The notes beneath the pieces are model-generated. The model had not been told where the DNA came from, made no database searches, and saw only the letters and a program-made list of their open reading frames with translations. Source: Isoetes taiwanensis (Eukaryota > Streptophyta > Lycopodiopsida > Isoetales > Isoetaceae). From it: a stretch of 64,000 nt of DNA. The first letter of the stretch is position 1; the number at the start of each line of letters is the position of its first letter. This document shows positions 11,259 to 45,193 of the stretch, piece after piece. The translations under genes and the position numbers were made by a program. The stretch is from NCBI GenBank assembly GCA_021234155.1, contig JAJEKV010000026.1, positions 1,116,001 through 1,180,000 on the forward strand. The letters are read 5' to 3'.

Positions 11259-11288
11259 ATGTGGGTGAAAGCATGTTGTAGTGGAACA
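11259..11288. repeat. E1 left terminal inverted repeat and target copy
   Basis: The left end of E1 starts GGGTGAAAGCATGTTG at 11,263. Its first 26 bases (to 11,288) equal the reverse complement of 45,164-45,189. After a gap both ends share further similar sequence rich in TGTGGTGGGA and AATTTGT, so the full repeat is nearer 100 bp with indels. The four host bases before it are ATGT (11,259-11,262); those after the right end are ATAT, a 3-of-4 match to a target duplication. Confidence 0.85.
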
Positions 11289-11449
11289 AAAACGTGCATT
11301 TTAGCACCACATTTTTGGGTGCTAAGTGTGGTGGGAACTACCGAATTTGTAGTGGGAGAGGCAGTTATTTTTTCAAAAATACACATGATTACTTATTCAA
11401 AATTTTGTACTTTCAGTCTTATTCAGGCTTATTCAGCAATTTACACGAT

Positions 11450-11583
11450 CATTTTCCCTAAAAAACTCTGATCACACTCCCTTAATCCGGCAAAACCATT
11501 TCTGATTCTGAATTTTCATTTTCCCTCAAAAACTCTGATCACGCTCCCTTAATCCGGCAAGACCATTTCTGATTTCTGGCAAG
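11450..11583. repeat. 67-bp tandem duplication near E1 left end
   Basis: CATTTTCCCT..AAAACTCTGATCAC..CTCCCTTAATCC occurs at 11,450 and again at 11,517, a period of 67 bases with a few substitutions. It lies in the leader between the E1 left repeat and the first plus-strand exon, so it could be part of a subterminal or promoter region. Confidence 0.85.
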
Positions 11584-11598
11584 AAGATCAATCACGAA

Positions 11599-11735
11599 AT
11601 GGCTCTGATCATACCGGACTTAAATGCCACGGGATACACCTACAAGAAAATGTACAGGCAAGAAAATCATTACGCCACACAAGAAGAAATCGAGTCTGTT
11701 TGGGGACCGAAAGTATTAGGAAAATCCACTTACAG
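11599..11735 (+). CDS. E1 first plus-strand exon (WGPK protein, N-terminus)
   Basis: An ATG at 11,599 in good context (GAAATGGC) opens 45 codons starting MALIIPDLNATGY and containing EEIESVWGPKVLGKSTYR. It ends at a GT donor at 11,736 (ACAG/GTGGG); without splicing a TAG follows six codons later. The Trp-Gly-Pro-Lys block recurs in the minus-strand protein at the right end of E2 (32,032-32,244), supporting it as a shared gene of this element family. I do not recognise the family. The downstream exon phase could not be resolved, so only this exon is called. Confidence 0.55.
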
Positions 11736-12066
11736 GTGGGTTGCATTCTAGATTCGGGGATGCCCATGATTCTCTGTTGTTTAGAATATTGTTTTGTTTC
11801 ATCATGCAGGTTGAAGAATCTGAGCAAGGAGAGGTATAATGAATATATGTGCCTTTACTACCTATTTTTTCCAAGGGGGGTTCACCTAATGGTCACGTAT
11901 GGACCAACTGCGTGAACGTTTAGGGTTTTCTTTTGGGGTGAGTCGACCGTCTACGGTTGAGTTCTCATGCGGTCGAAAGCCCATACTTCCGGCTTTGAAC
12001 GTGAAGGGAGCAAAGGCGGGAAGGAGAGATCCGTAGGTGGTCGATTTGGGCTGTTCAATCTGGCAG

Positions 12067-12182
12067 ATAGAACAGGGTTTTTTGCCTAAACGACTTGTAT
12101 GCCGTTTTGCAAAACCTTATGAGCCTGGTGCTTATGTGCCATACTGGAATGGGTACGAAGTAGCCGCATTTCAGCACAGAAG
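12067..12182 (+). CDS. E1 exon-like segment (KPYEPGAYVPYWNGY)
   Basis: After CTGGCAG (12,061-12,066) a 116-base segment stays open in one frame and reads FLPKRLVCRFAKPYEPG and then VPYWNGYEVAAFQHR. It ends at a donor, AGAAG/GTAAAG, at 12,183. A third open segment follows ATGGTCAG near 12,262. It looks like the continuation of the WGPK gene, but joining it directly to the exon at 11,599-11,735 gives a stop, so another exon, another splice site or a lesion must intervene. Function unknown. Confidence 0.4.
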
Positions 12183-12459
12183 GTAAAGTTTGGATCCTAG
12201 CCTGTGGTATTTTCATCCATTTTGAATCTAAGCTTTGTTCATTTTGGATTTTAATGGTCAGGTGGGCGCCAATGCATCATACCGAATGAAGTTTTATCTT
12301 CGGTTCTCGGTGGTGCCCGGGTATGATTTTGAGTTACATTCAAGGAGACATATACAAAGGCGTTTTTTCTAGAGCTCCAAAGAAACAATTTCAACAGTTC
12401 AAGATCCCAATAATTAAACGGGAGCTTCCAAATCGTAGACTTAGCCGCATTTCATAACT

Positions 12460-12948
12460 TTAGACCTCGGTTAGAAATGGCGAGTAGTAAATAAGTTGTC
12501 GGGCTGGTTTTGCGTTGTTTTGCTCTGCAAGTATAATACCGCATGGGTTCCTGTTAGTAACTTTTGCAGAGTTTTCATCTAGGTTGCTTATTGTCTTTGT
12601 GATTCCCAAGCAACCAGCCAGTTGTCTTTTTATTTTTGCATGCCAACTGCTCTTCCAAATCTTCCCAAGGTATTCTTTCATCTTATTCATGTTTGTAATG
12701 CCATAAATTTCAATTTCAAAAAGTCTAGAGGTCTTATTGTCTCTTATTGTTTGCATGATGCGATTTGCCCTAGGAGTGTAGCTTAGAAAGCCTGTTTTAT
12801 CTACAGTGTCCCCATAACTCCAAGAACATTCCCTTGCTTTCCATTTCAAGCCTTTTATGTCCATATTTCGAAAGACATGTAGGTTAACATGTTGCCTAAC
12901 TTGGACATGTGTGTTGGACTTCGGTACTTTTCCTGTAGTATTGATCAC
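12460..12948 (-). CDS. Uncharacterised 162-aa open frame
   Basis: A single uninterrupted minus-strand frame of 162 codons with balanced composition, Lys/Arg-rich, containing WKARECSWSYGDTVDKTGF and EIYGITNMNKMKEYLGKIW. No family is recognised, and no catalytic motif, signal peptide or membrane segment is visible. It lies between plus-strand exons of E1, in opposite orientation, so it may be a nested insertion or a decayed retroelement piece. The composition is less biased than chance frames nearby, which is the only reason it is listed. Confidence 0.3.
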   Translation of the reverse strand: MINTTGKVPKSNTHVQVRQHVNLHVFRNMDIKGLKWKARECSWSYGDTVDKTGFLSYTPRANRIMQTIRDNKTSRLFEIEIYGITNMNKMKEYLGKIWKSSWHAKIKRQLAGCLGITKTISNLDENSAKVTNRNPCGIILAEQNNAKPARQLIYYSPFLTEV

Positions 12949-15660
12949 CCTTTTTCTTCTCTGTTGTGAACAGGTATGTTGCGTTTCTGTGTTTGAGGGA
13001 CCTCTTTGGGAGCAATTTCGTCATCAATATTTATATTGAACTTGGTTCCTAGGTCAGTGTTGTCATTTTCAATGTACCAAATGTTAATGTGTGTTATGCT
13101 ATCGGTGGCGAGAGGGGCGTTATTGTTCTTGATCCATTTGCCCTTTTTATTTAACTAGCATCCCATAAAATGTTGCATGCTGGGCTTTGGATGGTGTGAA
13201 GAATAACATAGGCCCTTATAGAACTTTTATAGACGTTAATAGAGCTTTCTCTTGTTTTCAATTTATAGAACGTCTTTAACTATCTGGCCTTTACCCAGAA
13301 GGAACTCTGCAAGCCGTTTTCAAGAAAGGATCTTAAAGCCATTCAGCATGCAATCATTTCTGTTATTGGATGGCAAATGAGCAGTCAAATATTTGATACT
13401 ACAAATAGCTCGCAAATCTTTAATTGTTAATTGTTGTCACGCCATGTAAGTTGGTTATCATTTTGAATACGTTGTTTATTGATTTTGGTTGATCTGTAAT
13501 AAAAGTTGTTTGCGAAAAGAGTTTGAGCATGCAAATCATTTACAGATGTCCCAAGAAAAACCTGAAGAAAGAATGCAAAGAGAAGTGTTACATCAGGTCA
13601 TTTATTTCAATATATCTTGTGCTTTTCACGCATTAACAATCTCATTTGCCGCATTGGGATTTTTAATGTGGCTGTGTAAGAGAAAGCCCGCTGCACTAGT
13701 CCCTATAATATATGTGAGTACATGACTATTTGCTAGCATGTGCTTCATGTAATGTGTGTTCAAACTAAGACAATATGTTAGCAGGAAAGTGCTCTACAAC
13801 CAGTATCCTTAAAATTGCATGGCTTATTAGAGTTGGACATAGATCTCTAGATCATTGTAGCTATGGTTATTGAGGTAATACCTCTAAGTCATTGTATAGT
13901 GGGCAAAACACTTAGCATTGTAATCTCAGGCTTTTATACTGCAACTTAGCATCATTCTTCTGTATGTAGTGCATGTGCTTTGCAAGTAGTTCTGGATGCT
14001 ACTTTAGTTGAGAAAGAGAAACTGCAGCACAAAGGGTAGAGAAATACTAAAGATTGTTTCCGAGGTTGAACAAAATAGAAGGAAGAATGTCATGCAAACT
14101 CTTGTTTATCTAAACCATTATTTAGCTATCTTTGAACGAAACATAGAGGTGATGGAGTCTGAACACTGCAGCTACAAAATGAAATTCAAGGACTGTTTGT
14201 TAATTTCTTTAATCGCATATATATGCGATTCCAACTTGGTTCGAGAGAAGATAATGCTCAAGTGTACATGTTTATTCAACATATATGCGATTCGAACTTG
14301 GTAAGCATAATTCAACTTTTAAATTTTCTATTTGGTGAGGAATTTCTATTTATCCACCTATATGTGTTTCTTTGTAGCTCGCAGTGAGGACTTTGATTGG
14401 TAACACAAAGAAGAAAGCAGTCATTGTGCTAATTTTGATCAAATATTAGGCAAATTCTAAGGACGTTCTCGTTTATGAGCCACACCCACATCTTCAAAAC
14501 ATTCTAAATATCTGGATCATCAATGAACAAGAGTCTTAATTTGAACTTGCTGGAGCATGATTACATGGAAAATGAAAAGCCGTTCCAAGTCTCAAATTCT
14601 ATTATACAAAAGGTGTTGATTTATTGTTTTTGTCGAAGGCCTTGCAAGATTTTCAATGCAAAGCATTCAATTAGAAATAGCATGAGTCTGTGTAGGAGAG
14701 TTACATTTTTTGCTCAGTAATAGTTTTCAATGCCATGTCTATATTACTAGTTTCATGCAGGTTTGTAAATTTTGGAAGTTAGTGCCACATGGATGCCAAT
14801 TGATGTACTTCTGAATGTGCTTTCCAATGTGACACGTTGCATATCTTAAAAAAAAAATGTCTGCTATGTAATTTTGTAAACAAGAATTGCTTCGCATGCC
14901 GTTATATGGTTGCATATGATGCCTATGCTCTACGAATGTTAGAAGTTTGTGTTCGTGAAATAAGCTGTCTCAACTAGCAAAAATAACCATAACAATATGA
15001 ACTCAAGATGTTAACAAATTATAGGTTAATCATACTACTTCTAGAAACAAGTGAAGGGAATCTACAAACCTTTTGAAAGAGCATTGTGGCATATAGCAAA
15101 ACAAATAGATATTAGCACAAGGGAGTGGTACTGGAAAAATGTAGAGAATGTTGTCTCATAAAGTTGACTTCATGTGATCCAACTTGACAACATGAACCAT
15201 TTTACATTGCACCAACTTTGCAAGAGACAACTGCCATTACTTTTTATGGGGCATGTCATTTAATATTAGGCCTCTCTTTGGAATTGAGCTTGACTATCAA
15301 GGGTTAACTTTGACTTATGGCGCTAACTTTGACCTTGAGGTACTTTATCTTCATGGGTTAGCAATCATTTGGCATTCTAATAGCATTTCATTCTAATAGC
15401 ATTCTAAACTAGTTCTCAAGTCCAATGGTGTAATGGGAAAAATATTTCGATTATTCACCTCCTCTGTTGCATAGGCCCCGTGATCAATCTGCCATGTTTA
15501 CCCTGGAACGTGACCAACTCAACGTGGTGGTCCGTGCAAGCATATGGTCCATGCAAGCATATGGTACAAAGTCGGAAAGGGATTATATAATTTGGCACAA
15601 TCAATCGTAAATCTACGGATAGGGGCTATATTGTATGTTAGTTCGAAAAACCGTATGGTA
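12949..15660. other. E1 interior, no convincing gene
   Basis: AT-rich sequence with short frames of no recognisable family. A phrase CATATATGCGATTC.AACTTGGT occurs twice (about 14,214-14,242 and 14,279-14,301). This may be intron sequence of the E1 plus-strand gene or decayed insertions. Confidence 0.4.
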
Positions 15661-15669
15661 TGGGTTTTT

Positions 15670-15957
15670 CTACTCCAAAAAGTCGTATACATGGGTTTTT
15701 CTATGACCCCTCGAACGCAGATGCCATCTGTCCATATATAGAGGTGCACCCCCCGGGATTTTTTCAGTGATTTTCCCCGAGATTCTTCTTACAGCTTGAG
15801 GAGGCTTGAATTGTGGCCTAGTCATTTCAAGAGAGGAAGCATCAGCTGTGGCATGTTGCTCTGCTTCCTCACTATTTGAAATGCTTGCATGCTTCCTCTT
15901 ACGTTGGGACATAGAGGCTTTAGACCCTTTTTCTCTTAACTGTTGCCAGAAACTCAA
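15670..15957 (-). CDS. Possible exon of an unknown basic/acidic protein
   Basis: A minus-strand open frame of 95 codons with a plausible internal start MSQRKRKHASISNSEEAE, a nuclear-localisation-like cluster followed by an acidic, Ser-rich stretch. The first residues (MSFWQQLREKG) could be upstream coding or leader. Nothing else identifies it. It opposes the plus-strand gene block of E1 and could be part of a separate nested insertion. Confidence 0.25.
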   Translation of the reverse strand: MSFWQQLREKGSKASMSQRKRKHASISNSEEAEQHATADASSLEMTRPQFKPPQAVRRISGKITEKIPGGAPLYMDRWHLRSRGHRKTHVYDFLE

Positions 15958-16339
15958 CCAGTTTATTTCTTTTCCTTTGTGTGAAGGTAATACGCAACAG
16001 CCATAGTCTGTGAGGCCATGCCCTCTTCTTCTGGAACCACCATATGATGCAATTTAATATTGGAACTGTTATGTTCCAGCAAGGTCTAGCAAGCTTGAAC
16101 AATCAGGTACACCACTTACTTCTTCATTTGGGTGTGTTGTAAGTTATGTGTAGGAAATTTGTGTTGCTAGTTTCGAGTTGTGGTGGATAATTTCAGTTCA
16201 CAGTAGTATGTAGCTCCAAATGTGTTACAGGACAGTCATATGGTGCCAATTATATGTTAATAATGTAGTTTGTAGCATATATAGTGTCACATATAGTACC
16301 AAACGTGGTATATGTGATGTTAGATATGGTGATACTTGT

Positions 16340-17891: not shown

Positions 17892-19185
17892 GTTTGCAGA
17901 GCATGGTGCCGTTTACTAATTCAGGTCTAACTATTCATACTGGTGGCAATGACTTTGTGAGTCCATATAGCACACCAAAAAGGGAATTATTTTCTACCCT
18001 CAAAGGTAACCAAGTCTTGTTTGATGCAATTGGGATATGTAGCTTACTTCTTCATCCCTACTTTGTAGATATAGAGGTACAATGTGGTCAGTTAGTGGGA
18101 CAAGACACTCGCACCCCTTCGAAAGCATTAGACACAGATAGAAACTCGGGCAAATCAGAAGATGCATCAGGTTACAGAAACTCGGACAAATTAGTAGATG
18201 TCAACAAATCAGTAGGTGCATCAAGTCAAGCTCCAGTAGGTGCTCCAACTGGACAACAATCTGCCAGATCAGCAGATGCATTAAGTCATGCTCCACACCA
18301 ATATCTGCCAAATCGGCAGATGCATCAGGTTATGATCTGAACAAATCGTTCGGTGAATGTAAGTCACAAGGTAACTTCCAACCTTTTGTGCCTGTCTTCT
18401 TTTTAATTTGACCCATATAGTTACCGAATCTGTTAAATTTTTGCAGCTGGAAGTGTCTCAGAGAAAAAGCAAGAGCAGAAAAGAAATGCTGAAGCAGAAG
18501 TTTCCAGCCCTGCACCAACTCTGTCCATGCAGAAGACTACAAGGTTAAGCCCAATCCTGCTTGTTTTTTACTACAATGGAGTTCTGGGTAGAAGCTATGA
18601 CAAGAGTGAGTTACTACCCACTGCCAAAGAAGTTGGTGTTAAGTTGATCACACTTAACAGAACCAAGTGGGTAGTAACTAGACCAGGCTGGGCCGAGTTC
18701 ATAGATTGGTGCAGTCAGAATTTTCATATAGCACTTTGGTCCAGCCTGCAGGCTCAAAACTTGAGAATCATAGTTAAGGGAGCATTGATGAAACACAAGG
18801 ACAAATTCAAGTTCATATGGAATCAGGATCAGTGTACCAACACAAATTTATTTAACAGTAAAAAGCCAATTTTTTTGAAGCACCTCAAAAAGGTCTACGA
18901 CGAATTTCCAGGTTTCACAAAAGAGAACGTGCTTCTCATTGATGACAGCAGATACAAAGGGTACCTCAATGAGCCAAACACCATGATCTGTCCAAACAAA
19001 TTTGGCCCCGACGGCGAGTAGATGGCAATTTTCTCATGAATGATCTAAAGGTTTGGCTTCAGGGGTTGTTGAAGGCAGGGAATGTGCAAAGTTATGTCGA
19101 AAGCAACAAAATGCTGAATATGTTTGACATTGAGAGTCAAATTTGTATTAATATGATGAAAAAACATAGAACTAAAGCCTAGAAA
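17892..19185 (+). pseudogene. E1 FCP1/NIF-like (HAD phosphatase fold) gene, decayed
   Basis: Exons appear to be 17,892-18,005, 18,069 to about 18,370 (Ser/Asp-rich, with repeated DAS..NSDK phrases) and 18,447-19,021, with GT-AG borders. The last exon reads ILLVFYYNGVLGRSYD, then TRPGWAEFIDWCSQNF, ALWSSLQ and VLLIDDSRYKGYL. These match, in order, the FCP1-like phosphatase motifs (D-x-N-G-V, RPG..eF, vwSS, iDDs.K). The nucleophilic Asp of motif I is Tyr here, so catalysis would be lost. A stop (19,019-19,021) follows GPDGE, but one base off the frame continues sensibly (VDGNFLMNDLKVWLQ) to a TAG at 19,183-19,185, marking a 1-nt deletion. It sits between the coiled coil and the peptidase of E1. 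E2 has no visible counterpart. Confidence 0.65.
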
Positions 19186-19317: not shown

Positions 19318-20207
19318 CAGCACGAGGACTGCAGTGTTAAGAGCGCACATCCGACCAGAACACTTGCCACTTGAAGTGTTTAAAGGACAGCAGGAGCCTC
19401 TTGTGCTTGATCAAGAGGCAATCAGAATATTGGAGAAAAGTAGGGATTGGTTCAGTGACAAGATAGTCCATTTCTTCATGAGGTTAGTAATTTAATATAA
19501 ACAACTCAGATTTGAAGTCTTTTGTTGTTTCTTAAATCATCTTGTTTTACCAGACCTTGGACTTTGGCAGGTGTATGCACCAATTCTGCATCAAGCATGA
19601 CATGGAACAGAGGTTCCATTTCATGGATCCGCTCATTTACACATTATTGTCGAACGAGCTTGCTTCAAAGGACAAACTGTTGAACCCTCAACTTGCAATT
19701 TCGGAATGTACCATTCTGCTAGCATGTTATCAGCAGCACTGGACAGTGTATGTCGTTGTAGGTCTTGGAGGTCAGCCAGTTAAATGTCAGCCAGGTGTGT
19801 ACCATTTTGACAGCCTAGAAATGTACAAGGGCTCCGAGCCTGTCATGAGTTTTGTTGAGGATGCAAACACAAAATTCCCAAGCACCATAAAGCTGCGCCA
19901 CAAGAAAATTACAAGTTCCCCACTTTCGGTCGATTCTTTGGTCGTGGTGGTCGCTTTATATGTGTCTTTGTAAAGAAAGTTGTGGCTGCAGTAATGCAAG
20001 ACTTGGACATACTATCCCAATGCAAGGTGAGTTCGTAAAGTTGAAGGTATTACTCATCCAATGTGAGGTCTGGTATGTTTGTTGCAGGGTGTACCAATTT
20101 CTAGTGGCGAGCTGTTGGACACGCGCAGAATGATGATTGATGTTGTGAAGCACAGTTGCTCTAGTAATGAAGCTGAGGTTGACAGATCAATAGATCTTTA
20201 CTTGTAA
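19318..20207 (+). pseudogene. E1 C48 (Ulp1/SUMO-protease-like) peptidase, decayed
   Basis: Exons: about 19,318-19,480 (IRPEHLPLEVFKGQQ..WFSDKIVHFFMR, ending at a GT donor); from 19,571 (DMEQRFHFMDPLIYTLL) through QQHWTVYVVVG and VYHFDSLEMY; and 20,092-20,207 (GVPISSGELLDTRRM to a TAA). The His of HWTVYVV and the Asp of HFDSL fit the C48 catalytic His and Asp. The Gln..Cys block is damaged: around 19,925-19,960 the reading must change frame to reach GRFICVFVKKVVAAVMQDL, and no DCG motif is found. C48 enzymes cleave SUMO-like modifiers; in plant transposons such domains are usually cargo. Convergent with the E1 transposase, as in E2. Confidence 0.6.
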
Positions 20208-23444: not shown

Positions 23445-23467
23445 GGGTAAAAGAAAGCTAGGGTGTC
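23445..23467. repeat. E2 left terminal inverted repeat
   Basis: 23 bases, perfect inverted match to 32,721-32,743; preceded by TGAT. Confidence 0.92.
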
Positions 23468-23758
23468 TTACATTTGGCCAAATGTAGAGTAAGAGATGTA
23501 TCACATTTCAAATACATAACCGTTTTTTCAGTATGTACATAATAGCTATATTATAGAATCTTTTTTTTCGGAACTACTTGCCACGTCAATTAAAACGCAA
23601 TCATGAAGCAGATTTCAATTCCCGCCGCTGTAACCACTCCAAGAAATGCCTGAACGTTAGGAGAATTTCCCACTTTCTGGCTAAAACTTTGCCCAGCTCC
23701 AGGATTTCCCTCCTTCTTGCCAGAATTCCTCCAGCTAACCCTAAACCACGCAAGAACC

Positions 23759-26700
23759 ATGATGAACAACGAAGGAACAGAAATGGCGCAAGAGGATTGC
23801 AATATCGGGAATGTGACAAAGAAAATGAAGCGTAAGATTGATGAAATTTGTAAATTTATATATGATCAGGTTCAAGATTTACGTCATGTGCGAAGGAGAG
23901 CTTTAGCAGTAAAAACTGTTCGGGATGAAAGGCTGCACTTCTTTTTTGAACCTGCCATTGGAAATCCAGCGCAAGCAATTCTGAAGGATACTATGCTAAA
24001 AAATATCCGTGAAGGTCTGCAGGAAGTGAAACAAGCAAATAGCAATGATAAATTAGCAGCTAAGCATTCCCTGTTATCAATGATTGTTGGTGAGAATGGA
24101 AAACTCAGGCAAAAAGGTTCTTCAAGTGCAAGCAAAAAACCTCACAAAAGCTGCAATTAGAAGAAAGCGGATGTCATTATCAGGTGCTAATATGTGGGCA
24201 CTGGCAGGAAGGCAACCCAGGGCAGACATGCTTCCGGAATCAACCAAATAGTTGGTAAATGAGTTTTGGTTAACCCAGCACACAAAAACTTCTCCAAAGT
24301 ACAAGGATGTCAGGAAGAAAAGGACACTTCCAATCCAGTTTTTGGACATGCCCCAGGTCAGTTTTAAGTCTTTTAATCCTCTTTCTTGCAAGCTTGATAG
24401 AAGCTAGCTTATGTGCATCCTGGATAAGTTTAGTAATCCTATTTGCATTCCATGTAAGGGATGTATCTGATATACATTGTAGTACATCCAACTACAATAA
24501 TTATATTTTTACACTTGGAGGTACTGAATGAGCTATGTTTAACAGGAAAAGTACTTGGATGTACTTCCAGTACATCCAATGTGGCATAAGGCAGAAAATG
24601 TGTTGAAAGTCAGGCTGTGTTATTATAGTCTTGCTTTTTGTAGTTCCCAAGTACATTATAGTACATTTTAAGCCTTCCTGATCTCAAGATAGTCTTTAAA
24701 GATAGGGTGATACATAAAAGTATTTAAATGTACTTCCTTCCATAAGAAAAGTATGAAATACATACATCTGTAATACAGTGATACTGTCTGTGACCTGGTT
24801 ACATATTGAGTTTTTTTATGTACATCTGGAACTTTTTGGAGTACATTATTTATACATTTATACATATCATGTACAGGGTATGTATGATGGTGTGGTATAG
24901 TAGTTGAATGTATATCAAATCATGATCTGAGTGCCATAGAACTAATGCAATGTCTGCAACATCTTTGAATTCGTAAGTAGTTCTAATTTATAACTTACTT
25001 ATACATGCTGTTTTTTTCCTTGCGGAGTGAATTGTAAGAGATGTTCAAAGATGAACATCCTGAAGTGAAGATTAGCATCAGAAAGTTCGAGCTGCTTAAG
25101 CCTACGTGTGTGAGAAGGTTGAAAGAGAGGAACACATGCTGTTGCGTGAAGCATGAACAAGCTGATCTATACAGGAAAGCTTTTAGCGTCCTGAGAAGCA
25201 AATTTCATGCCAACTGTACATGTTCTTGTGGTGTTTGTGCAGCAGATGAGAACAATGGCGTCTGCCAAGCTTCTTCTAAAACATTTCAAAATGTTGGTGC
25301 TATGTGGAGAGCTACGGTCTGTGATAAGGAAGGCGAAGAGTGGCATAGTTTGGTGTCAAGGGAGAGTGCCAGAACTGTGGCACTGAAAATATTCAAATCT
25401 GTCCTAAGGAGAAAGAGTCGCAGAATGAGAACATTGAATGGCAAGTTTACAAGCACGCGGAACGAACCTTCCAAAGTCGGCACTTCAAGGAGGTTGAAGC
25501 TTGTTCTTGAAAAGCGGGACTCGTGTACATTGCTTGACAAGATGTTTCAAAGACCTTACAAAGTTCACTATTCACAACTTTTCAGCAAGTTGGCGAGCAA
25601 ATAATTCAGGAAATCGAGTGTAAAATTTGAGGGATGATTCGTTTTGTCAAGAATGGACTTTGCAGAGAACTACACTTTGCGACCATTCGGGGAGGTTCAG
25701 TCCGAGCATTGGAACAATGACCGATAACTATTACGGTGCATATAACCATGATGAAAGTCAATGGCGAGCTGAAAAAAACTGTTCATTTGTATGTTTCCGA
25801 TGTTATGAAGCATGATGCTTTCTTTGTTCAGGCTGCACTCAAGAAGCACCATATTTGGATGATGCAAAAAGGTTTTGGCCACATCAAATACCATGTCATG
25901 TGGTCTGATGGGTGTGCTGCTCAGTTTAAGTGTTCTCGAGCCTTTTATTTGAATGTGGCCCAATATTATAACAGGTATAAAATTAGGATGCAGTGGAATT
26001 ATTTTGGCTCAGGCCATGGAAAAGGAGAACATGATGGGCAGGCTGCTTTGGAGAAAAGGTTCCTAGCAGACGAGCAAAGGAAAGAGAATAGTGTTCCGAT
26101 TTTGGGTGCCAACTCTGCTTGCACTTTGCTGAGACAAAAGAAGTGCAAAATGGACAGAGTTATATGGGAGGTGATGGCAGAAGACATTAACAGGGACCCT
26201 CGTTCAGATTGTGAGACATTGCCTGGTACTCTAGCTATACATTGTGTGTCTGCTATTAATCCAGCTGACCCAACACTTGTCATGTATAGATCCCTATCAT
26301 GTTTTTGCAATGGTTGCTTGAATTTCAGATGGGGAGAATGTGAGAATCTCGAGCATTGTGTTGCGTGGAAGCTGCACAAACTGGAGCCTAGTTCGGCCCA
26401 GGTCGACGAACAAGAAGAGCTAGTTGGTTTTTATGCAGCTGATGAGCAAGAACTATCCGATGTACTCCAAATTGGAGACATATTTGCATCTTTTGCTGCC
26501 CCAGGAAATCATGAAAATGTTCCATACTTCATCCTCCTATGCGTGAAGGAGATGCATATTCTTCAGGAAGATGTGATTGACGACTATGGAAATAGAATGC
26601 TTCTTGGTGATTGGGGGTTATAGCTGGTCATTACTATCAACTGCTACAAGGCACAAAGCACAAGTACAAGTTGCTAGATGACAAAATAGTATTGGTACCA

Positions 26701-26841: not shown

Positions 26842-26885
26842 CTAAGTTCTGTACAAAGGAACTTTCATATTTGCCATCATCTTCT

Positions 26886-30236: not shown

Positions 30237-30259
30237 TGTCATGGATTTCTCATTTCTTT

Positions 30260-32244: not shown

Positions 32245-32720
32245 ATCTTACATGCTTTGCCTCCACAACAGCGGGTTCTTCACAAATAAGTCTTCTTTTT
32301 TGCCCTGGTTCCTCAGAAGTTTGAACCTTCCTCTTGTTTTTTTCGGCTTTCTTGCTAGAATCGGCTATTTTCAAATTTTTGTTTAATCACGGGTGACTTA
32401 GGGAGGCAAAGGCGTCCATTGCTTGGATTTGGGCAAGGATTTCGAGGAAGAAGAATAGTTACAGTCGAATTACTTCGTTGATCACTCACAAACACAAAAA
32501 ATTGGAACGGCGGCAAATTTTTTTCCTAAACAGGAAACACTTCGCAATCTCCCTCCGAAAAATTGCAATGAAGGTCCGTTCTGGTTGCCACTGCCACTCA
32601 TAATTTTGAATTGCTGACGTGGCTACTCCTAATCATTACATATCCCAACTAACTAAAATTCAAAAAAAAAAAACAAAAACGGGTGCCTACATTATACATA
32701 ATGTAAGGGCATTTTTTTTA

Positions 32721-32743
32721 GACACCCTAGCTTTCTTTTACCC
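32721..32743. repeat. E2 right terminal inverted repeat
   Basis: Perfect 23-base inverted match to 23,445-23,467; followed by the TGAT target copy. Confidence 0.92.
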
Positions 32744-36078: not shown

Positions 36079-37594
36079 CTATTCTTCATCAGACATGCTA
36101 TCCTCATCAGATAAAACCTCGGGCAAGTTTTCTAGAATCTTTTCCTCATCTGCCTGGTCTAGCCTGTAAACAGTTCGAGCACCTTTCTTGATCTGTTGCA
36201 TGGGAACTCGAATAGCACAAATTTGAGTAGAGAATACAAGTGACTTTGGCTCGTTTGTCAACAACTCATACATCACCTTTGACCGAGGCTTCTTTCTATA
36301 GTAAATGCCCTCCACAACGGTTTCACCTCTCATAAACAAGTTTCCGTTCTGTTTGAAGTCATTTTCAACTTCAAATTTTGGCTTGGTGCATAGCAACATC
36401 CAAAATACAGAATCCTCCTCATTCCCTTTAGGTGCGACAAGAAGCGCAAAGTGTCTCCTTCTCTAAGTACTTACGCAAGTACATTTGCCAAGGTTGAGTA
36501 TAGTGGCCTGGTAGACTTGGGTCTCTTCCACATCCGCATGAACATTGGAGGATGGTTCAACGACTACAAGGTTCCATTCATCTACATACAATTTGTTCTC
36601 ACACATGTCCCATTTTCCATCCAAACAATTCCGCAAAAACATGATAGCTTTTCGGTATGTAGTCGTGTTGGATTTCTGTCTTGAATCCATGGGTGAATGA
36701 ATTTGCCTGGTTTCGGAATTGTCTCGCACCCCAAGCCTTTTTCCTGTTGATATCCTCGGGTTTTATTTCCCGTAAGTATCTCCAGAACTTTTCTTCCATT
36801 TTCAGTCCACTCGGATGTACCACATTGAAATTGTTTCTCGCAATTTTCACCACATCGTGGGCATTATCTAGTTTAATGTCGGGGATGTTTAAGCCGTAGA
36901 CCTCGTGATCCATCTTTTCAATTCACGCCTTCCCATCATGTTCACCTTTTCCATGGTTTGATCCAAAGAAGTTCCACATCATGTTGACCTCGTATCACAA
37001 CCGTACCTTCCAACAAAATAAAATGATCCGGCCGCTTTGAATTGTGATGCAAAGACCATCCGAAAATACATAGTGTTGTTGGGGACATTGCCTTTTCGCT
37101 TTAAGTACTCAAAATATTTCATAAAACAATGTTGAACAAAAAGTGTGTCATGTTCCTATCATCCGACACATAGTAGTGTGTTTCCTTCTCAATGGTGTAA
37201 ATGCGTGGATCAATCTGATAAGTTATTTGAACAAATATAGTTATCTGGTTGTTGACCCAGCGCATGGACTGAACTTCATTCTGCTCCTTAAAAGTATAAT
37301 TCTCTGCGAAGTCAACCACGGATAGGTAAGCATCTCCAGGCAAGTTATCAAGGAGTTCTTTGTACTGGCCTGCCTGCCACTTATATCTAAAGTTGTGTAA
37401 AGGAAATTTTGGAAGCTTCTCCAACATTTTGTTCACCAGTGGAAGACTTGCAGTTTCATTGTGTTGGTGAACGAGCTTAGACTTCTTGCTGCCATCTCTG
37501 AATACAGTTTTTTCATAGTCTAGGTATTCCCACTTCACCATGCCACTATCACTAGATTGTTCATGTGGGCAGATAGGGAACTTCTTAATCCCAC
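36079..37594 (-). pseudogene. E1 transposase-like protein, C-terminal part
   Basis: Continues the protein interrupted by E3. From 37,594 down: IKKFPICPHEQSSDSGMVKW, LPLVNKMLEKLPKFPLHNF, then WQAGQYKELLDNLPG, VVDFAENYTFKEQNEVQSM, QITIF, HYYVSDDRNMTHF; an SDG-like Asp block near 37,050 broken by a 1-base shift (followed by ASQFKAAGSFYF); FFGSNHGKGEHDGKA near 36,945-36,905; a middle region with HDYIPKSYHVFAE; and a C-terminus QQIKKGARTVYRLDQ ending in an acidic tail (DEDSMSDEE). Every block matches the E2 protein. At least two frame changes and one TGA (about 36,920) show it is dead. Transcribed inward from the right end of E1. Confidence 0.75.
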
Positions 37595-38157
37595 AACCAT
37601 CATTCATTTAAGTTGGGATTATGTCTTAATTTTGGGACATTTTTCAAGTTGTAGTTTTTTAGTAATGAATTCAAATTTACATTTCTTATTGCTTTTTTAC
37701 AAATATGTAAACATTAACAAATTACATGAGTGCAAATTATTGATCTTTTTGTTTGAAAACAAAAAAGAAGAATAAGCGTACCTATTCCTCTTTCATTTCA
37801 AAAGTAGACAAAATAATAACAAACAAATTAGTTTCATAAAATTGAAGATCCCATACAAGAAAAAAATGTTCCATTATATATTTCCTTAAAAATTACAATG
37901 TTTCTTCACTCATTATCCCAACAGCTTCTACAACTTGTTTTTGAAATTGATGGCCTTCTTATGTAGTCCAAAATAGAACCCATCACAGCATCCATATGTA
38001 GCATAATAACAGGGGGTTTTCTTTGTGTTTTTGTACGCTTTTCACTAAGGTTTTCCTATGATTTCGTGATGTATTCAAATGGATGTACTAATGCGTACAT
38101 CTAGAGTGCACCATTTCCAAGCCATTGATTTTAGCTTTTTTTTTTCAATGGTCAACA

Positions 38158-38411
38158 CCAATGGCTCACAACAAAAGCCCTTTTTTTGTGCGTGTGGTGC
38201 ATAATGGTCAACAACCAATGGCTCACAACAAAAGCCCTCTTTTGTGTGTGTGGTGCATAATGGGCACATGAAGGGCTTGAAAACCAATGGCTCACAATAA
38301 AAGCCCTTTCTTTGTGTGTGTGGTGCATAATGGTCAACAACCAATGGCTCATAACAAAAGCTCTCTTTTTGTGTGTGTGGTGCATAATGGGCACATGAAG
38401 GGCTTGAAGGG
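38158..38411. repeat. Minisatellite with alternating 57/69-bp units
   Basis: CCAATGGCTCA begins at 38,158, 38,215, 38,284 and 38,341. The units share AAAGCCCT..TTTGTGTGTGTGG and TGCATAATGG. Even-numbered units carry an extra GGCACATGAAGGGCTTGA, giving a 126-bp higher-order period. Frames on the minus strand (repeated YAPHTQK phrases) are by-products. Confidence 0.88.
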
Positions 38412-39221
38412 CGCATGTAGTGCAGTTTCCCCACTGGCAACGCATTTCTTATCATAACTTTTGATCCAGAGCTCTGTTTGAGATGATTTTTATTGCGTTG
38501 GAAAGCTCTCTCCGAGATCTTTTTGATAGTGTATGATATTGATATGTTTTGGTTAAGTTATCTATGCTAAAACAGCAATTTTTCGGCCGGGTTTGGTAGG
38601 CTTTCACATCCTACCAGCTGATTAATACAGGATTGCGCTATTGGATATTGTTTTATGGCTCATTCCGAATGAAGCTTGCAAAAAATTACCATGCATTTTT
38701 AGATTTTGAGGCAGTTATTAAGCAAATTCCAAGGCTTCTAGATCCTTGTGCTAACAAGCAGAAAAGTTTCCCACTTTGGTTTCTAGAATCCATGGAGGCC
38801 AAAGGCTGCTGTTAAATTCTAGTTGAAAAATGTTTGTGTATGGGTGTTGCAAACTTTATGACTTTCAGAATAATGGGATCAATATGCTCTATCTTTATGG
38901 TAACTTTTACTTATGTTCTATTTGTTTTATTGTGATGAAATTCAAAAGCTACAGGTGATGAAAGCCTCAAATGAATTCTAGTTTTTTTCTGGTTTGAATT
39001 CTAAATTTTTTTGTCACTGGGGAGGCCGTCCCTAAGGCCCCGAAGGGGCCAAAAAAAATTTTTTGCAACACAAACCATTAACATCCAACATATAAATATT
39101 AAATCCCCCAACACATAACAACCATTGACATTAACAACCAACACATAACTACCGTTGATATTAATTAACACAACCATTGGGTCCAACACATTTAAATTAA
39201 AATCCCCCTTAAACCCCCTTT

Positions 39222-39496
39222 GGTTTTGGTGCATATTCACACGGGGGGTGACGTAGGGCAGCGAGAGCCCTCATAATTGTATTTTGCACGTACGAAATCA
39301 ACACCATATAGTATTCCGCTTGAAATTTTATAGTATTTTGCAAATCTTGTTATACAGTATAGCAAATTTTGTACTTGCATACCCCACAAACGAGGAACTT
39401 TACGTACGGTGTAGATTAAGGAATAAGGGGTGAATATGCCTATCCAACAGCTCTCGTTGCCCGGAGTCACCCCCTGTGTGAATATGCACCAAAACC
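39222..39496. mobile_element. 275-bp inverted-repeat (MITE-like) element
   Basis: The left arm 39,222-39,269 starts GGTTTTGGTGCATATTCACA; the right arm 39,449-39,496 is its inverse, with about 42 of 48 bases matching. About 180 AT-rich bases lie between. No clear target duplication was found at its borders. Located inside E3, so a further nesting level. Confidence 0.75.
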
Positions 39497-39499
39497 ACA

Positions 39500-41700
39500 A
39501 AACAAGTAGTATTTTCATTACTAACGTGAAATATGATATTTACAATTAAAAAGCTGCATGGTAAGACTTAAACTACAGAAAATAGAAATCTCTAAGTGAG
39601 TGCCATAATTACAATTCTATACGACATTCTGAACTAGAAGAAGCCACGGTGCCATATCAAACATGGTTTTATATTTCCAATTAGCCATGGCATACCAAAC
39701 ATGGTTTCGTATTTCTAAATAAAAGTTCTAAATATCTTGAAATAATCTCAAAGGAAAACAACTCAAAAAATGAACGCTTTAGCTAGGCTAGTAATGGTTA
39801 AAATGTCTATGTGTGCTTCTTCCTATCTAATACACAAATATAATAATAAGATTCTAAATAGATAAGATATTATATTCACTCAAGCTCATGGTGTAATGTG
39901 AAAAATGCTTAGTTTACCTTGAAAATAAGCTTGAAAATAACATGAAAAGGCTCAACGATATGTCCCAACAATTTATTTGGTTCACCTAAGAAAATACCCA
40001 AAAAGATTGTTTTGACTCAAAAATAACTAAAAAATAAAAAGCTAATTGTTAGCATAAAAATAAGCCAAAACATGCTAGAAACACACGCTTGGCGTGAACA
40101 TGGTGGAAGGCAAAAAAGCTTCGAAATTGATGAAATCTAAAATCTCAAATATAAAAAACCTGAAAGAACTTAAATTGCTTACAAAAATCAAACTCTAGCT
40201 CTGGATTGCTTGCTGTGGCCAAGATTGCTTGCTTTCTATAGACCAGGATAAATTTGTTCTTGGTTACAATTTGTAGATGACATCTTTTTTGCAGGTACAT
40301 CAAGAGTGAGCATCAAAACATATGGCTGCCAGAAACAAAAGCGCAAATCTGTAAGAAATGAAAACAAATAAAACCTGGAAGCTCATATTCACACTGTCGG
40401 ATTCGTTTGTGTCTGTTTCTGCCAGATCACTCTGTTTTGTTTTCGGGCAATGCTTTGGGCCGTAGTATGGGTGGCTGCATCGAAAACAAGAAGGTTAAAA
40501 GAAAGCGCAGGAATTCAAATTTCAAGAAACAGAGCAAATTTCAAAAAACAGAGCAACACGTGCGTGAAATTCAAATTTATAAAACACATTTTGTGCTTCT
40601 TTTGTGCCTCTTCTTCCAGCTTCTTACTCGATCCATGGCTTCGCCTTTCATCCATTCATGATACAGATATGATTCTTCAATTGTATTCGTGGTTGCGCCA
40701 ACAGACATACCACAGTTGCTGATTCCGGAACATCATATGCCCATTTCGGCATAGACGTTCATTTTTCTCTGTGTGGCTCTTTGCTATTTCTCTGCGCTAA
40801 TCCAGTTGCTAATTCAGGGCTTCATTATTTCTCTGTGCCTTACGAATCCAGCAATGGTGATCTCTACTTTGATCTGCCCATTTCTTAGAAATAATATTGC
40901 TGAGTGTACTTCTGAATCCTTGCATTGCCGCACAAATTATAGACATGATTTGTGTCCACTGCTGCTTCAGCTACAACCCAAAAGAAAACGAGAAACGCTG
41001 CAACCAAGGGAAGGATGTGGCGCTATGTCTGGAGATCTGTCGTCGCCATAGCTGCCCAGCTTGTTGAGTGGACTTTTGATTCCTGAAAAGAGTAGACGCC
41101 ATAGCCAAGGCTCTTCTTGAGAAAGGGATACAGCAAAAGAAAGAGAAATATATACAACAAAAGAAATCGAGAGGAGAAGAAAAACCGTTGGGATTGAAAA
41201 AATGGCAGACAAAACAGCCGACGGAGCAGGCACAGGGATCGGATTTGGCGATGGCAGCTCCTCTTGATGGCGCAGATAAATATGGCGCAAATCTTTCTGC
41301 TCCAAGCTTGGAGATGCAGCTACAGATGTCAGTTCTAATACTTCTAATGCGGCTCTAATGCGGCTCTTCACTTCTATTTCCTGCAGAAGTAAATCAGCTT
41401 CCTCTTCTATTTCCTGCAGAAGGCCAAGCGTGTGATCAAGGACATGCAGGCGACGGCTATGGTAGAAGATGGCGATGGCAAAATTGATGCAGTGTTATAA
41501 TCCGGCAGATGGAGGTTAACAACTATCCTTACCCTGAGTTTTTTTTTTTCCGTTAAGCTTTCCTCTGAGTTTTTTTTTTGCAGAGTTTTTCTTATGAGTT
41601 TTGTTTTCGCCTTACAATTTCTTTACCCTGAGTTTTTTTTTCTTTATGTCATTTTTTTTGCCTTACAATTTCTTCTGTTCCATGACCACCTGGTCAAGAA
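39500..41700. other. E3 interior without recognisable genes
   Basis: AT-rich sequence. Frames around 40,407-41,371 on both strands are hydrophobic or basic but show no family motifs. T-runs after TGAG recur at 41,540-41,640. Confidence 0.4.
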
Positions 41701-41715
41701 TAAGAGGGAATTTAG

Positions 41716-41940
41716 GACACGCTAGGCGTGATTTGCATAAGAGTGAATATCTTAAATCACGCCAAGCGTGCATTAGTCTATAGCAAAGTGGATCCTAAAC
41801 CACATATTAGCACCTTAGCAATCACCTTTACAATATTATTGTGCTCACTAATACACGCTAGGCGTGATTTGTTTTGTTCCATATTAGGTTTCCTTAAGAA
41901 TATTATGCTTGCTAATACAGGCTTGGTGTGATTTATTTTG
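41716..41940. repeat. Repeated palindromic CACGCTAGGCGTG motifs
   Basis: ACACGCTAGGCGTGATTTG occurs at about 41,717 and 41,853; an inverted relative (AAATCACGCCAAGCGTG) at about 41,755; a diverged copy (ACAGGCTTGGTGTGATTT) at about 41,916; and a related CACGCTTGGCGTG near 40,084. Each is itself an inverted repeat (CACGC..GCGTG). They are spaced irregularly within E3. Confidence 0.7.
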
Positions 41941-42476
41941 TTTCGTAACTAGGTTTCCATAACTAGGTTTTAGTTGTTGAAATAATTAGAGGAATGTGAT
42001 GACGAGTTTGAACCCTCAATCGTCGAATCAAATAATGCACAAGGGGCATGGAACTCTAAGAGTAGCCTAGAAAATAATTAGAAAGGACTTGGCTACGAGG
42101 TATAGTCATCTTTCCCTCATCTTGCTGTTAGCTGAAGAATCTCTACTATCAATCTCATTTCTCTATTGGATTATATTAAGAGTTTCCTTGTCCACATGAA
42201 AAATGTGACATACTTGTTATCAGGATATGATGTTATTAATGTTAAGAAGTTTGTCTCTTTTTATAATACCTCGAGTGCTTCTACCATCAAACTCAAACCC
42301 AAAAATCAACCATCTTATGATCAAGACAACTTTGCAACAGATGAGTTCGTGGTCCAATTTATAGCTATTGCGAATAACTTTTGCTAGGGGGGATGACAGT
42401 TTGTGGAGTGTTAGAATTGCATCCAGAACTAGACATGGCAGCTAACATGGAAGATGATTTTGTTTTTTATGTGGGA

Positions 42477-42700
42477 AAACATGGATTGATCCCTTAATGT
42501 TTATTGGAATATATCATTGTATTGATATTTGTTTGATATATCCATAATTTTAAGGTTGTTCTTGTCCAAAAAAAAAAAACCACCTTGTTAAATAGGTAGA
42601 AAAACATGGATTGATCCCTTAATGTATTATTGGAATATATGATTGTTTGTAATGATATTTGTTTCATGTATCCATAATTTTGGGGTTGCTCTTGTTCCGA
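42477..42700. repeat. Tandem duplication of about 120 bp
   Basis: AAACATGGATTGATCCCTTA occurs at 42,477 and again at about 42,602. The two copies run in parallel through TATTGGAATATAT..GATATTTGTTT..ATATCCATAATTTT and end with a GTTG.TCTTGT phrase. Located near the right end of E3. Confidence 0.8.
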
Positions 42701-42961
42701 AAATAATGTCATTTGTTAGCAAATTACATATTATTTTCGTCCCAATGTTCTTGGATTTTGATATCATGCACTTAAACAACTTGCCCTTCTATTTTGCATA
42801 TTTCAAGTCGCATCTAAAATGACTCATAGAAACTGCAACGTTTATGTGATTTGTCACGTCCAAAAAAAAGATTAAAAAAAAAACAAAAACCCCCTAGAAG
42901 ACAACAGCAGGTTGGCGTGATTTTGGAGTTGACATAATCCCAATTTAATTGGATGATGGTT

Positions 42962-44914
42962 CCACACTCTTTACACTCACCCAGAATGCATTCCCTCTTA
43001 TGGTAAGGTTGGAAGCTAGTTTTCTCACATAAGATTCCCTGCCACAGACTTCTTGTGCTACTTATTTTGTATTCAGACGCCCTGCATTCACCATATATGT
43101 CTGACCTGCAAAGCTGACAAGTGCAGCTGCAGCTTTTTGGGTGCTTAGTTCTCATACTATTGAAGCCATCTATTAGCATCTGCATTCTAACATGGTATAT
43201 ACAGCAGCAACTATTGAAGTCCTTTAATTTTACAACAAACCATGGTTTCAGCTTTTCAAACATCCTCTGTTTGATCATAACACTAGGATGTTCCGTCTTG
43301 AATTTCCTGAACAATTGCAACTGCAAGGAAGATAACAAGGTGATCAGCATATTTATTGCACACTACATTTTCCACCACACTAGGCACCACATAGCATATA
43401 TTACAGACATTCATCTTATACCTCATTATTCACCACACTAGGCACCACAAAGCATATAATACATAATTTATTGTACACCATATTTTTCAAAGACTTTGGG
43501 CATCACATAGCATATATTACGTGGACATTCATCTTACACCTCTTTATTCACCACACTAGGCACCACAAAGCATATAATACATAATTTATTGCACACCATA
43601 TTTTTCACCACACTAGGCACCACATAGCATATATTACAAAGATTTATTTTACACCATATTTTTTCACCACACTAGGCACCACATAGAATATATTACAAAG
43701 ATTTATTTTACACCATGTTATTCACCACACTAGGCACCACATAGCATATATTATATCATTTATTTTATACCATTTTATTCACCACACTAGGCACCACAAA
43801 GCGTATATTTATAGCATTTATTTTTCACCATATTTTTCACCACACTAGACACCACATAGCATATATTACAAAGATGTATTTTACACCATGTTATTCACCA
43901 CACTAGGCACCACAAAGCATATATTTACAAAGATTTATTTTACACCACGTGCCTCACCACACTAGGCAAAGCACATATCATATATCACAAAGATTAATAG
44001 GCACCACACACCACGAGCAATCACTAACCACACCAACCACATATCACAAGCAATCACTAACCACATACAACATACCACATTAACAATAAAAATGTGGTGA
44101 AGATGAAGAAATGAAATAACCCCGTGATTCTTCCGGATAGTGAGTGGCATGATCCTCTCTTACATTTCGTTCCAATCTTCGAACTTAACATCCTTTGCAT
44201 TTGAGAGACCCTCTTGTTTTTCGGTCCAAAATTGCTGCACAAGTTCTATGACATAATTGGGAATTGTATCTGCTCTTCTAACTCTTTTGTACAAAACCCA
44301 TTTCCCCCCTTTGCAATCTATCTCTTCCCTCTTCAATTTTGCTTTGGTAAGATTCCTAGGATGAACACCCAGCAGTTTACCAAAACCCCGAAGCACCGAT
44401 GGGGATTAGCACTTTTGGTATTAATGCTTCCTCTTACGGCCATAGCAAGGCAACTACTTTTGGCTGCTAAACTGTCATTGTTGTTAGACTTCTTCACAAG
44501 TTGAATGCAAGCCCTGAGGTTGCTGACCACAATGCTCTTGGCTTGCAAATCTTTCAGCTCTTCACCAAGTACGCTGTCCATTGTGTCATCCTGCAGAAAA
44601 TCTCGTAAAACCTCTTTCTTATCACTGTCAGCCAAGCCTTTAGTGGTGCTATGAAATGAAGATAGCAATTTTAATACCATCCGATGCCTAGTAGAGGCCG
44701 TTCTGGTGGATCCTCCCTCTGCTGATGCAATTTTTGCTAATTCTTCTTTAGCTTCCCTTTTTCTTTTCCTTTGGCGTCTTTTATGATCCCGTTCTTGTTC
44801 TGGAGTTCTCTTTCTCTTACCTGTGCTCCGTTTCGAGATTTTAGGCAGATTTGCTTCCAAATTAAATGATTCAAAGTATGAACCGGATTGATCCACAACC
44901 GGATTAAGCGCCAT
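42962..44914 (-). pseudogene. E1 transposase-like protein, N-terminal part
   Basis: The ATG at 44,914 lies about 275 bases inside the E1 right end. Pieces: a very basic stretch (KRTPEQERDHKRRQRKRKRE); SNLRACIQLVKKSNNNDSLA, matching the E2 block NIREGLQEVKQANSNDK; RNLTKAKLKREEIDCK and RRADTIPNYVIELVQQFW (44,350-44,200) after a frame change; an intron-like interval holding the CACCACA array; then from about 43,327 FRKFKTEHPSVMIKQRMFE, FNSCCCIYH, SCTCQLC and ILGECKECG, where E3 interrupts (42,961). The Cys clusters suggest zinc binding. Homology with E2 exons 1 and 2 is clear throughout. The remainder is at 36,079-37,594. Confidence 0.75.
43373..43990. repeat. 58-bp tandem array with CACCACA motif, 11 units
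   Basis: CACCACACTAGGCACCACA starts at 43,373, 43,431, 43,549, 43,606, 43,665, 43,723, 43,780, 43,838, 43,896 and 43,955, with a degenerate unit near 43,489. The period is 57-60 bases. Each unit contains two CACCACA copies (TGTGGTG inverse) and a CATATATTACAAAGATTTATTTTACACCA-like body. The array lies in an intron-like gap of the E1 transposase gene, 1.2-1.8 kb from the E1 right end. Confidence 0.92.
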
Positions 44915-44974
44915 AGCCGTGTGCTTCAGGAAAGGCGCGGGTGGGTCGTGGGTTTAGAAATCGGTTCGGTGGAG

Positions 44975-45028
44975 ATTGGAATGGGACGGGTGGCGTAGGA
45001 AATTGGAATGGGACGGGTGGCGTAGGAA
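44975..45028. repeat. 27-bp direct tandem duplication
   Basis: ATTGGAATGGGACGGGTGGC and seven further bases are repeated exactly at 44,975 and 45,002. It lies between the E1 transposase start and the right end, so a subterminal or promoter position. Confidence 0.85.
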
Positions 45029-45163
45029 TCGGGTTGTTGCATTTCAAGAAATGATTGAATCCGGGCAGTACATGCACTAGGTGCCAAACAAACATTTAAA
45101 ATCGCACCACAAATTTGATATCTCCCACCACATTTTTAGGGGGGGCAGGGGGGACACCCAGGG

Positions 45164-45193
45164 TGTTCCACTACAACATGCTTTCACCCATAT
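45164..45193. repeat. E1 right terminal inverted repeat and target copy
   Basis: 26 bases ending CATGCTTTCACCC at 45,189, a perfect inverted match to 11,263-11,288. The next bases ATAT (45,190-45,193) correspond to ATGT at the left side. Beyond them the Helitron helicase reading frame resumes (minus strand, IPVIENNAGLH). Confidence 0.85.

Follow-up and report, generated by a model that had tools for sequence, protein, structure and literature searches.

A TIR transposon swollen by nested insertions within a Helitron helicase gene of Isoetes taiwanensis

The window, by which is meant the whole 64,000-nucleotide stretch of Isoetes taiwanensis DNA analysed here, contains two parts of a Helitron that are separated by a transposon with terminal inverted repeats (TIRs), referred to below as the outer element. 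The principal features are arranged as follows.

10097..11258, minus strand: Helitron helicase, downstream part, from Walker B (PIF1 profile match and reading frames)
11259..11262: left target-site duplication, ATGT (from empty-site copies)
11263..45189, no strand assigned: outer TIR element with all nested inserts, 33,927 bp, of which its own part is about 15,359 bp
11263..11288, plus strand: left 26-bp TIR (sequence comparison of both ends)
45164..45189, minus strand: right 26-bp TIR (comparison of both ends and flanks of other copies)
45190..45191: two extra bases, AT, between the right TIR and the duplication, missing from all eight empty sites read
45192..45195: right target-site duplication, ATGT (from empty-site copies)
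45196..48407, minus strand: Helitron upstream part, comprising Rep/Helitron_like_N and the helicase up to Walker A (Pfam Helitron_like_N and PIF1); the limit at 48407 is that of the upstream ORF

Pfam Helitron_like_N is matched at 46036-47298 (E 1.7e-27), whilst positions 1-84 of the PIF1 profile are matched at 45174-45572 and positions 90-191 at 10707-11300, both on the minus strand. The disrupted host element thus combines Rep/Helitron_like_N with a PIF1-type helicase, the combination by which Helitrons are recognised. Helitrons typically have 5' TC and 3' CTRR ends. This arrangement agrees with an earlier sequence-only reading, which had described one helicase on one strand, cut between Walker A and Walker B. 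That reading had also proposed a search of the genome for the empty site, and when 40 of 327 candidate places in the same genome were scored for the joined Helitron flanks (the window and 39 others), the alignment ran unbroken across the insertion junction at all 39 of the others. Eight empty-site copies read base by base give a perfect duplication, ATGT/ATGT, and collapsing one ATGT yields an open helicase frame of 161 codons. The near-perfect duplication ATGT/ATAT originally put forward proved to be a misalignment of this perfect repeat and the extra AT at the right end, and was dropped, as the frame breaks under that join. Candidate sources of the two extra bases are AT slippage and imprecise cutting.

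The distance of 34 kb between the halves could also be read as the joining of two different Helitron copies by rearrangement or mis-assembly, and the nearest single copy is indeed L081 for the upstream half but L086 for the downstream one, with a further copy, L087, matching the two unequally at 96.3% and 89.8%. However, four of the eight copies read (L080, L081, L082 and L086) match both halves at 96.0-97.5% identity, and a junction of this kind, to which we attach almost no probability, was rejected on these common nearest copies, the perfect target duplication and the frame that stays open across the joined site. Halves from clearly different Helitrons, an outcome that the sequence-only reading had named as fatal to its claim, were therefore not encountered. 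The terminal branch of the window Helitron is near 1.4%, by hand calculation from the identities of the empty-site copies.

The 26-bp outer TIRs are identical as inverted repeats, as had been claimed for 11,263 and 45,189, and similarity between the two ends stops directly inside them. A whole-genome search for other copies of this end, likewise proposed beforehand, found the exact 26-mer 330 times in forward and 329 times in reverse orientation, with a reversed-26-mer control giving 0 in both. Exact 4-bp duplications flank 25 of 28 paired ends of the family; C674 and C230, two of the 27 pairs other than that of the window, are without an exact 4-bp match, and C112 was left out of the set, both of its ends having the same orientation. 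Since the host flanks of paired copies vary right up to the TIR, the outer boundary is placed there. Inside the TIRs the adjoining sequence is of the same two types throughout the 27 other pairs, and not the unrelated DNA by which the original claim might have been overturned. When the left 500 bp of the outer element served as query, itself beginning at base 1, base 1 was reached in 37 of 40 scored matches (of 586 candidates). TIRs with a sharp boundary common to many copies, and a fixed-length duplication together with an empty site, are both hallmarks of a cut-and-paste TIR DNA transposon, and both are found here.

Within the outer element lie three inserted segments, together with an inverted block and the contents of the largest insert.

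11872..15757: hAT-like insertion, 3,886 bp, with the 8-bp duplication ATTTTTTC at 11864-11871 and 15758-15765
15759..16022: block in the opposite orientation to that in all 19 other copies (copy alignments)
23445..32743, plus strand: nested sister element, 9,299 bp, TIR GGGTAAAAGAAAGCTAGGGTGTCT, with the duplication TGAT at 23441-23444 and 32744-32747
24114..26817, plus strand: nested transposase remnants (DFAENY, WSDGCAAQFK, FGSGHGKGEHDG), with stops and frame changes
28666..28953, minus strand: Peptidase_C48 (Ulp1) fragment of the nested element (Pfam E 7.3e-4; 19.9 bits, just under the cut-off of 20.7)
29164..29423: MITE, 260 bp, TIR GGGTAAAAGCATGAAAGGGTGTC, with the duplication CCAT at 29160-29163 and 29424-29427
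31165..31722, minus strand: RING-like ORF of the nested element (Pfam zf-RING_11 E 3.4e-5, under the cut-off)
37596..42961: TIR element, 5,366 bp, ends ACCATCATYC..., with the duplication CCACA at 37591-37595 and 42962-42966

Each of the three segments, the 3.9-kb hAT-like insert, the 9.3-kb sister and the 5.4-kb TIR element, has ends and a target duplication of its own, and none is present in any of the 19 other whole copies, which are the shorter of the 27 pairs (9.1-17.6 kb each). The sister's empty site is found in all 19 of these copies and that of the 5.4-kb element in all eight that retain its flanks, whilst none of the 19 matches the sequence of the 3,886-bp insertion, whose ends are CAAGGGGGGTTCACC and CCCGGGGGGTGCACC. 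The sole feature suggesting that this insertion is hAT-like is its 8-bp duplication; no hAT protein was found. The 5,366-bp element breaks the outer transposase gene.

Without the three segments the outer element measures 15,359 bp. The sequence-only reading had described a 33.9-kb TIR transposon, of which the TIR insertion into a Helitron stands and the size does not, because three separately bounded segments are missing from the 19 other copies read whole. A single 33.9-kb transposon would accord with the identical outer ends and their target duplication, and long spans also occur elsewhere in the family: in four of the 27 other pairs the ends lie 36.8-60.5 kb apart, and each of the four is flanked by an exact 4-bp duplication. 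Nevertheless, the independent ends and duplications of the inserts and their absence from the whole copies make such a transposon very improbable. The whole-copy reading took in the 19 shorter pairs, and some of the three segments could therefore be present in the eight longer ones, of 21.9-60.5 kb: C46, C66, C166, C223, C224, C230, C468 and C23.

The outer element's own part carries the following genes and remnants.

18437..19018, plus strand: NIF (FCP1-type) phosphatase-like ORF (Pfam NIF E 6.3e-11, above the cut-off)
19536..19970, plus strand: Ulp1-like ORF, read by eye, with no Pfam match
36082..37595, minus strand: outer transposase remnants, catalytic part, frameshifted and with stops (tblastn of the moss protein P0022)
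42962..44953, minus strand: outer transposase remnants, Cys-rich and N-terminal parts (P0022 and the nested remnant)

Among 11 other copies compared, the NIF-like ORF is unbroken in C499 only. The Cys-rich part of the outer transposase (43311-42961) matches P0022 with E 9.6e-18 and its N-terminal part (44953-44336) resembles the nested remnant with E 6.7e-5; judged by sequence similarity, the outer and sister remnants are homologous and form one family. The same protein family occurs in three separate elements with GGGT ends and 4-bp duplications: the outer, the nested and a third of 7,648 bp within copy C67b. The C67b element contains a 377-aa ORF of this family, and no longer ORF was found in 20 elements translated as unspliced sequence, so that no complete transposase was seen. 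No match above threshold was obtained in Pfam or NCBIfam, and the best match in a PDB search, at E 0.25, was to an unrelated protein. In the family alignment (A1), D234, D327 and D375 are nearly invariant and would fit an RNase H-fold DDE/D transposase. The outer and sister protein is probably a DDE/D transposase that cuts with a 4-bp stagger, and the decayed window copy was presumably mobilised by enzyme from another copy. Named relatives in moss, lycophyte and charophyte genomes are annotated as 'hypothetical protein'.

We are highly confident that the locus represents a cut-and-paste TIR element about 15.4 kb long, inserted into a Helitron helicase with a 4-bp ATGT duplication and swollen to 33.9 kb by three nested transposons. 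An element of this size, from a family with hundreds of genomic ends, would have landed in a single Helitron copy, within the helicase gene, duplicating the 4 bp ATGT at the target. Before or after landing, it would have received the hAT-like, sister and 5.4-kb inserts, the sister, whose transposase belongs to that same family, being struck afterwards by a related 260-bp MITE. The 5.4-kb insert would have broken the outer transposase gene, and the total span would so have reached 33.9 kb.

The outer element is a member of a large, little-described plant TIR family. Target duplications are 8 bp in hAT elements and 3 bp in both CACTA and PIF/Harbinger elements. Those of Mutator are 7-12 bp and those of Tc1/Mariner 2 bp (TA), according to PMC10741241. 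The 4-bp duplications of the outer and sister elements exclude all five assignments. Ginger elements are recognised by a Gypsy-integrase-like transposase, but neither the transposase ORFs that were scanned nor the relatives P0022, P0024 and P0111 gave a Pfam match to an integrase.

The transposase motif of the family may resemble that of Sola1, and assignment to Sola is offered as a guess. In PMC10741241 and PMC9033089, Sola is described as having 4-bp target duplications, TIRs, an occurrence in mosses and some elements of more than 15 kb, in all of which it is like the outer family; the first of these sources gives the 4-bp duplication as a Sola criterion, and the outer family shows it.

As in ordinary nested plant TIR transposons, insert lies within insert and each has its own duplication, and the outer copies of about 10 kb that are without the transposase catalytic region recall the short, internally deleted copies of such transposons. 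Unlike in ordinary nesting, two of the 20 elements scanned (the window copy and C67b) have been entered by a relative from their own transposase family. Teratorn, Polintons and enlarged En/Spm, giant transposons reviewed in PMC6431247, likewise hold tens of kb between short TIRs, whereas the window copy owes its excess length to nested insertions. None of the ORFs scanned was recognised as viral.

LTR elements are reported as the most abundant class in the I. taiwanensis genome paper (PMC8566536), the passages seen of which contain no mention of the outer TIR family; nothing on it was found among the literature listed on Isoetes TIR elements, which led to a baobab paper, on Isoetes Sola, which led to an unrelated one, or on Sola, giant transposons and nesting. 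A broader proposal, which we consider unlikely, is that of a hitherto undescribed streptophyte lineage of TIR elements, of superfamily rank, whose members repeatedly insert into one another and can then spread to new places as composites, nesting thereby building larger mobile units. The marks of such a lineage would be GGGT ends, 4-bp duplications and the transposase blocks DFAENY, WSDGC..QFK and GHGKGEHDGAGA; its passengers would be phosphatase, Ulp1 and RING-like. An apparent 34-kb jump is here resolved to a nest at base-pair level, within a transposon family of several hundred copies. Neither Pfam nor NCBIfam has a model for its transposase, and one would aid the annotation of moss, lycophyte and charophyte genomes.

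A nesting-first version of our preferred explanation holds that the outer element, with the sister and perhaps other inserts, moved into the Helitron as one unit of at least 25 kb. We regard this as doubtful, though worth considering because the outer and sister pair recurs at a second locus, C907, where the nested element lacks the 260-bp MITE. The left junction between outer element and sister is found again at C907:22298-22330 with two mismatches, the alignment is contiguous across it, and C907 and the window have seven derived sites in common, other pairs among nine sequences having 0-6; a copy of the nested pair has therefore arisen elsewhere. Near the expected outer ends at C907, L091, L092 and L093 have no match in the window, Helitron included. 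However, no outer TIR was seen at C907, and the 40 matches to the left 500 bp that were scored, out of 586 candidates, do not include this locus, so that this copy may be truncated. Segmental duplication is an equally possible origin, and C30, which is without the sister, is nearly as near to the window beside the junction, differing at 1.7% of 296 sites where C907 differs at 1.1% of 526. Whether a transposon can carry its own sister as cargo can be tested directly at C907, where this nested pair recurs. Over the outer part, the window and C907 copies differ at 33 of 1,431 sites.

The interest of this region centres on a pair of transposons, one nested within the other, that is present at two loci of the genome. 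The outer element (window 11,263-45,189) is bounded by inverted repeats of 26 bases (11,263-11,288 and 45,164-45,189), and direct comparison confirms the claim of the sequence-only reading that these are identical; divergence starts immediately inside them. The search for other copies of this end that the same reading had proposed, covering the window's own genome (1,658,258,908 bases, 1,110 contigs), found 659 exact places (330 forward, 329 reverse), versus none in either orientation for the reversed 26-mer control. All 27 adjacent convergent pairs seen among the 100 places listed of the 659 were taken, together with the window, as a set of 28, with spans of 9.1 to 60.5 kb. An exact 4-bp target duplication is found in 25 of the 28 end pairs, including all four of 36.8-60.5 kb (copies C66, C224, C468 and C23), the remaining three being C674, C230 and the window, where three of four bases agree when the flanks abut the TIRs directly. 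These duplications follow no strict consensus, C never occurring at position 2 (n=25). The boundary of the outer element is fixed because the copies have dissimilar flanks as far as the TIR itself, whereas the adjoining inner sequence falls into the same two types across the 28 pairs, one type at each end. When the left 500 bases were used as a query, 37 of the 40 matches scored (40 of 586 candidates), the window among them, reach base 1. The 26-base ends define a transposon family.

The 33.9-kb length is that of a nest of insertions. Among the 27 other copies, 19 were fetched whole, these being shorter ones only (9.1-17.6 kb), and element positions 597-4,496, 12,183-21,481 and 26,334-31,699 have no match in any of the 19. 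Since these segments also have their own duplications, they are three insertions:

11,872-15,757: first insertion, 3,886 bp, 8-bp duplication ATTTTTTC
23,445-32,743: second insertion (the sister element, a transposase relative), 9,299 bp, TIR GGGTAAAAGAAAGCTAGGGTGTCT, duplication TGAT, with all 19 copies showing its empty site
29,164-29,423: MITE inside the second insertion, 260 bp, duplication CCAT
37,596-42,961: third insertion, 5,366 bp, duplication CCACA, empty in all 8 copies keeping its flanks

The first insertion lies in a block that has the opposite orientation in all 19 copies. Once the three insertions and their extra duplications are subtracted, 15,359 bp are left, and the proposal of a single 33.9-kb transposon is not upheld, the headline length being a sum of nested insertions.

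The left junction between outer and sister elements occurs, at three or fewer mismatches, at two genomic places: the window and C907:22298-22330 (2 mismatches). Alignment of the C907 locus (L088-L090) is unbroken across this junction, with differences from the window at 33 of 1,431 sites in the outer parts and 25 of 508 in the sister parts. In the tail adjoining the junction the two loci have seven derived sites in common, other pairs of the nine sequences having 0-6, although C30, an outer-family copy that lacks the sister, is also near the window here (1.7% of 296 sites, against 1.1% of 526 for C907). The nested pair was thus copied once, through either composite transposition or segmental duplication. 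The sister copy at C907 is without the MITE, an exact absence with a 4-base overlap, and the MITE is therefore a later arrival in the lineage of the window. Sequences fetched close to where the outer ends would be expected at C907 (L091, L092 and L093) match neither the window nor other copies, and C907 is absent among the 40 scored left-end matches (40 of 586 candidates); its outer ends may therefore be lost.

The disrupted host is a Helitron of the ordinary kind, its helicase split by the insertion:

45,174-45,572, minus strand: PIF1 positions 1-84 (Pfam)
10,707-11,300, minus strand: PIF1 positions 90-191 (Pfam)
46,036-47,298, minus strand: Helitron_like_N, upstream of the helicase (Pfam)
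11,259-11,262 and 45,192-45,195, plus strand: target duplication ATGT, perfect, from empty-site copies
45,190-45,191, plus strand: extra bases AT, between right TIR and duplication

A 480-base query joining both flanks was used to seek the empty site, and all 39 listed non-window alignments cross the junction uninterrupted (best 96%; 40 of 327 candidate places scored). Eight empty-site copies were read; all are without the two bases AT, and the coding strand has ACAT at the site in seven and TCAT in L086. The duplication is therefore a perfect ATGT with AT as extra bases, so that the 4-bp length proposed earlier stands while the near-perfect pairing ATGT/ATAT gives way. With ATGT collapsed to one copy, the reading frame stays open across 161 codons. 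Of the uninterrupted Helitrons aligned with the halves, L080, L081, L082 and L086 are each 96.0-97.5% identical to both, the nearest single copy being L081 for the upstream half (97.5%) and L086 for the downstream half (97.1%); L087 fits the halves unequally (96.3% and 89.8%). The empty sites, the collapsed open frame and the same four near copies establish at base level that one helicase gene was cut in two, as had been claimed.

Both members of the nested pair retain coding remnants:

18,437-19,018: NIF phosphatase-like ORF (Pfam, E 6.3e-11), unbroken in C499 only among 11 other copies compared
43,311 to 36,082, minus strand: outer remnants matching P0022, with stops and frame changes
44,953-44,336: N-terminal piece of the outer gene, linked through similarity to its nested counterpart (E 6.7e-5)
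24,135 to 26,608, plus strand: sister remnants matching P0022, with stops and frame changes

P0022 comes from the moss Ceratodon purpureus and is 774 aa long. The family of these remnants numbers 130 members in one search and 156 in another (both at E 0.001), Klebsormidium nitens included, and one Klebsormidium member, P0134, additionally carries LRR domains. Its conserved blocks are DFAENY..EIQS..W, ISDD..HD, WSDGC..QFK and GHGKGEHDGAGA. Pfam and NCBIfam scans of the window's pieces and three relatives gave sub-threshold matches only, and the family profile had no match below E 0.25 in the PDB. A third element, 7,648 bp long, is nested in another outer-family copy, C67b (L064-L065, element positions 5543-13190), with GGGT ends, TIR GGGTGTAAAATCG and duplication ATGT, and its 377-aa ORF belongs to the same family; insertion into kin is therefore not unique to the window. 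Because the three elements agree in the type of their ends, in duplication length and in protein family, the protein is likely to be their transposase, with a putative catalytic role. Copies of the 10-kb type are without the catalytic part, and so resemble deletion derivatives that were mobilised in trans.

The outer element behaves as common cut-and-paste TIR transposons do. According to PMC10741241, Sola elements have 4-bp duplications and TIRs, occur in moss and can exceed 15 kb in length; the outer family fits this description in these four respects. A search of the literature on Isoetes TIR and Sola elements found nothing on the outer family, which is therefore probably new by name; the kind of transposon is already known.

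A minisatellite of ~58-bp units (TCACCACACTAGGCACCACA core) lies at 43351-43998, within the outer element and close to the gene for its transposase, and self-overlapping matches in other copies suggest that its unit number varies. Imperfect direct repeats of 130-280 bp occur at and upstream of the Helitron coding start (48213-50139), and shorter ones, of 36 bp and 121 bp, close to the left-hand limit of its coding region (9243-10023). A nearly pure pyrimidine tract of ~1.6 kb, rich in TTTCCC, occupies 7273-8898 and contains plus-strand chance ORFs of up to 390 codons. Minus-strand ORFs at 57427-61524 appear LINE-like by eye, with a putative endonuclease and reverse transcriptase.
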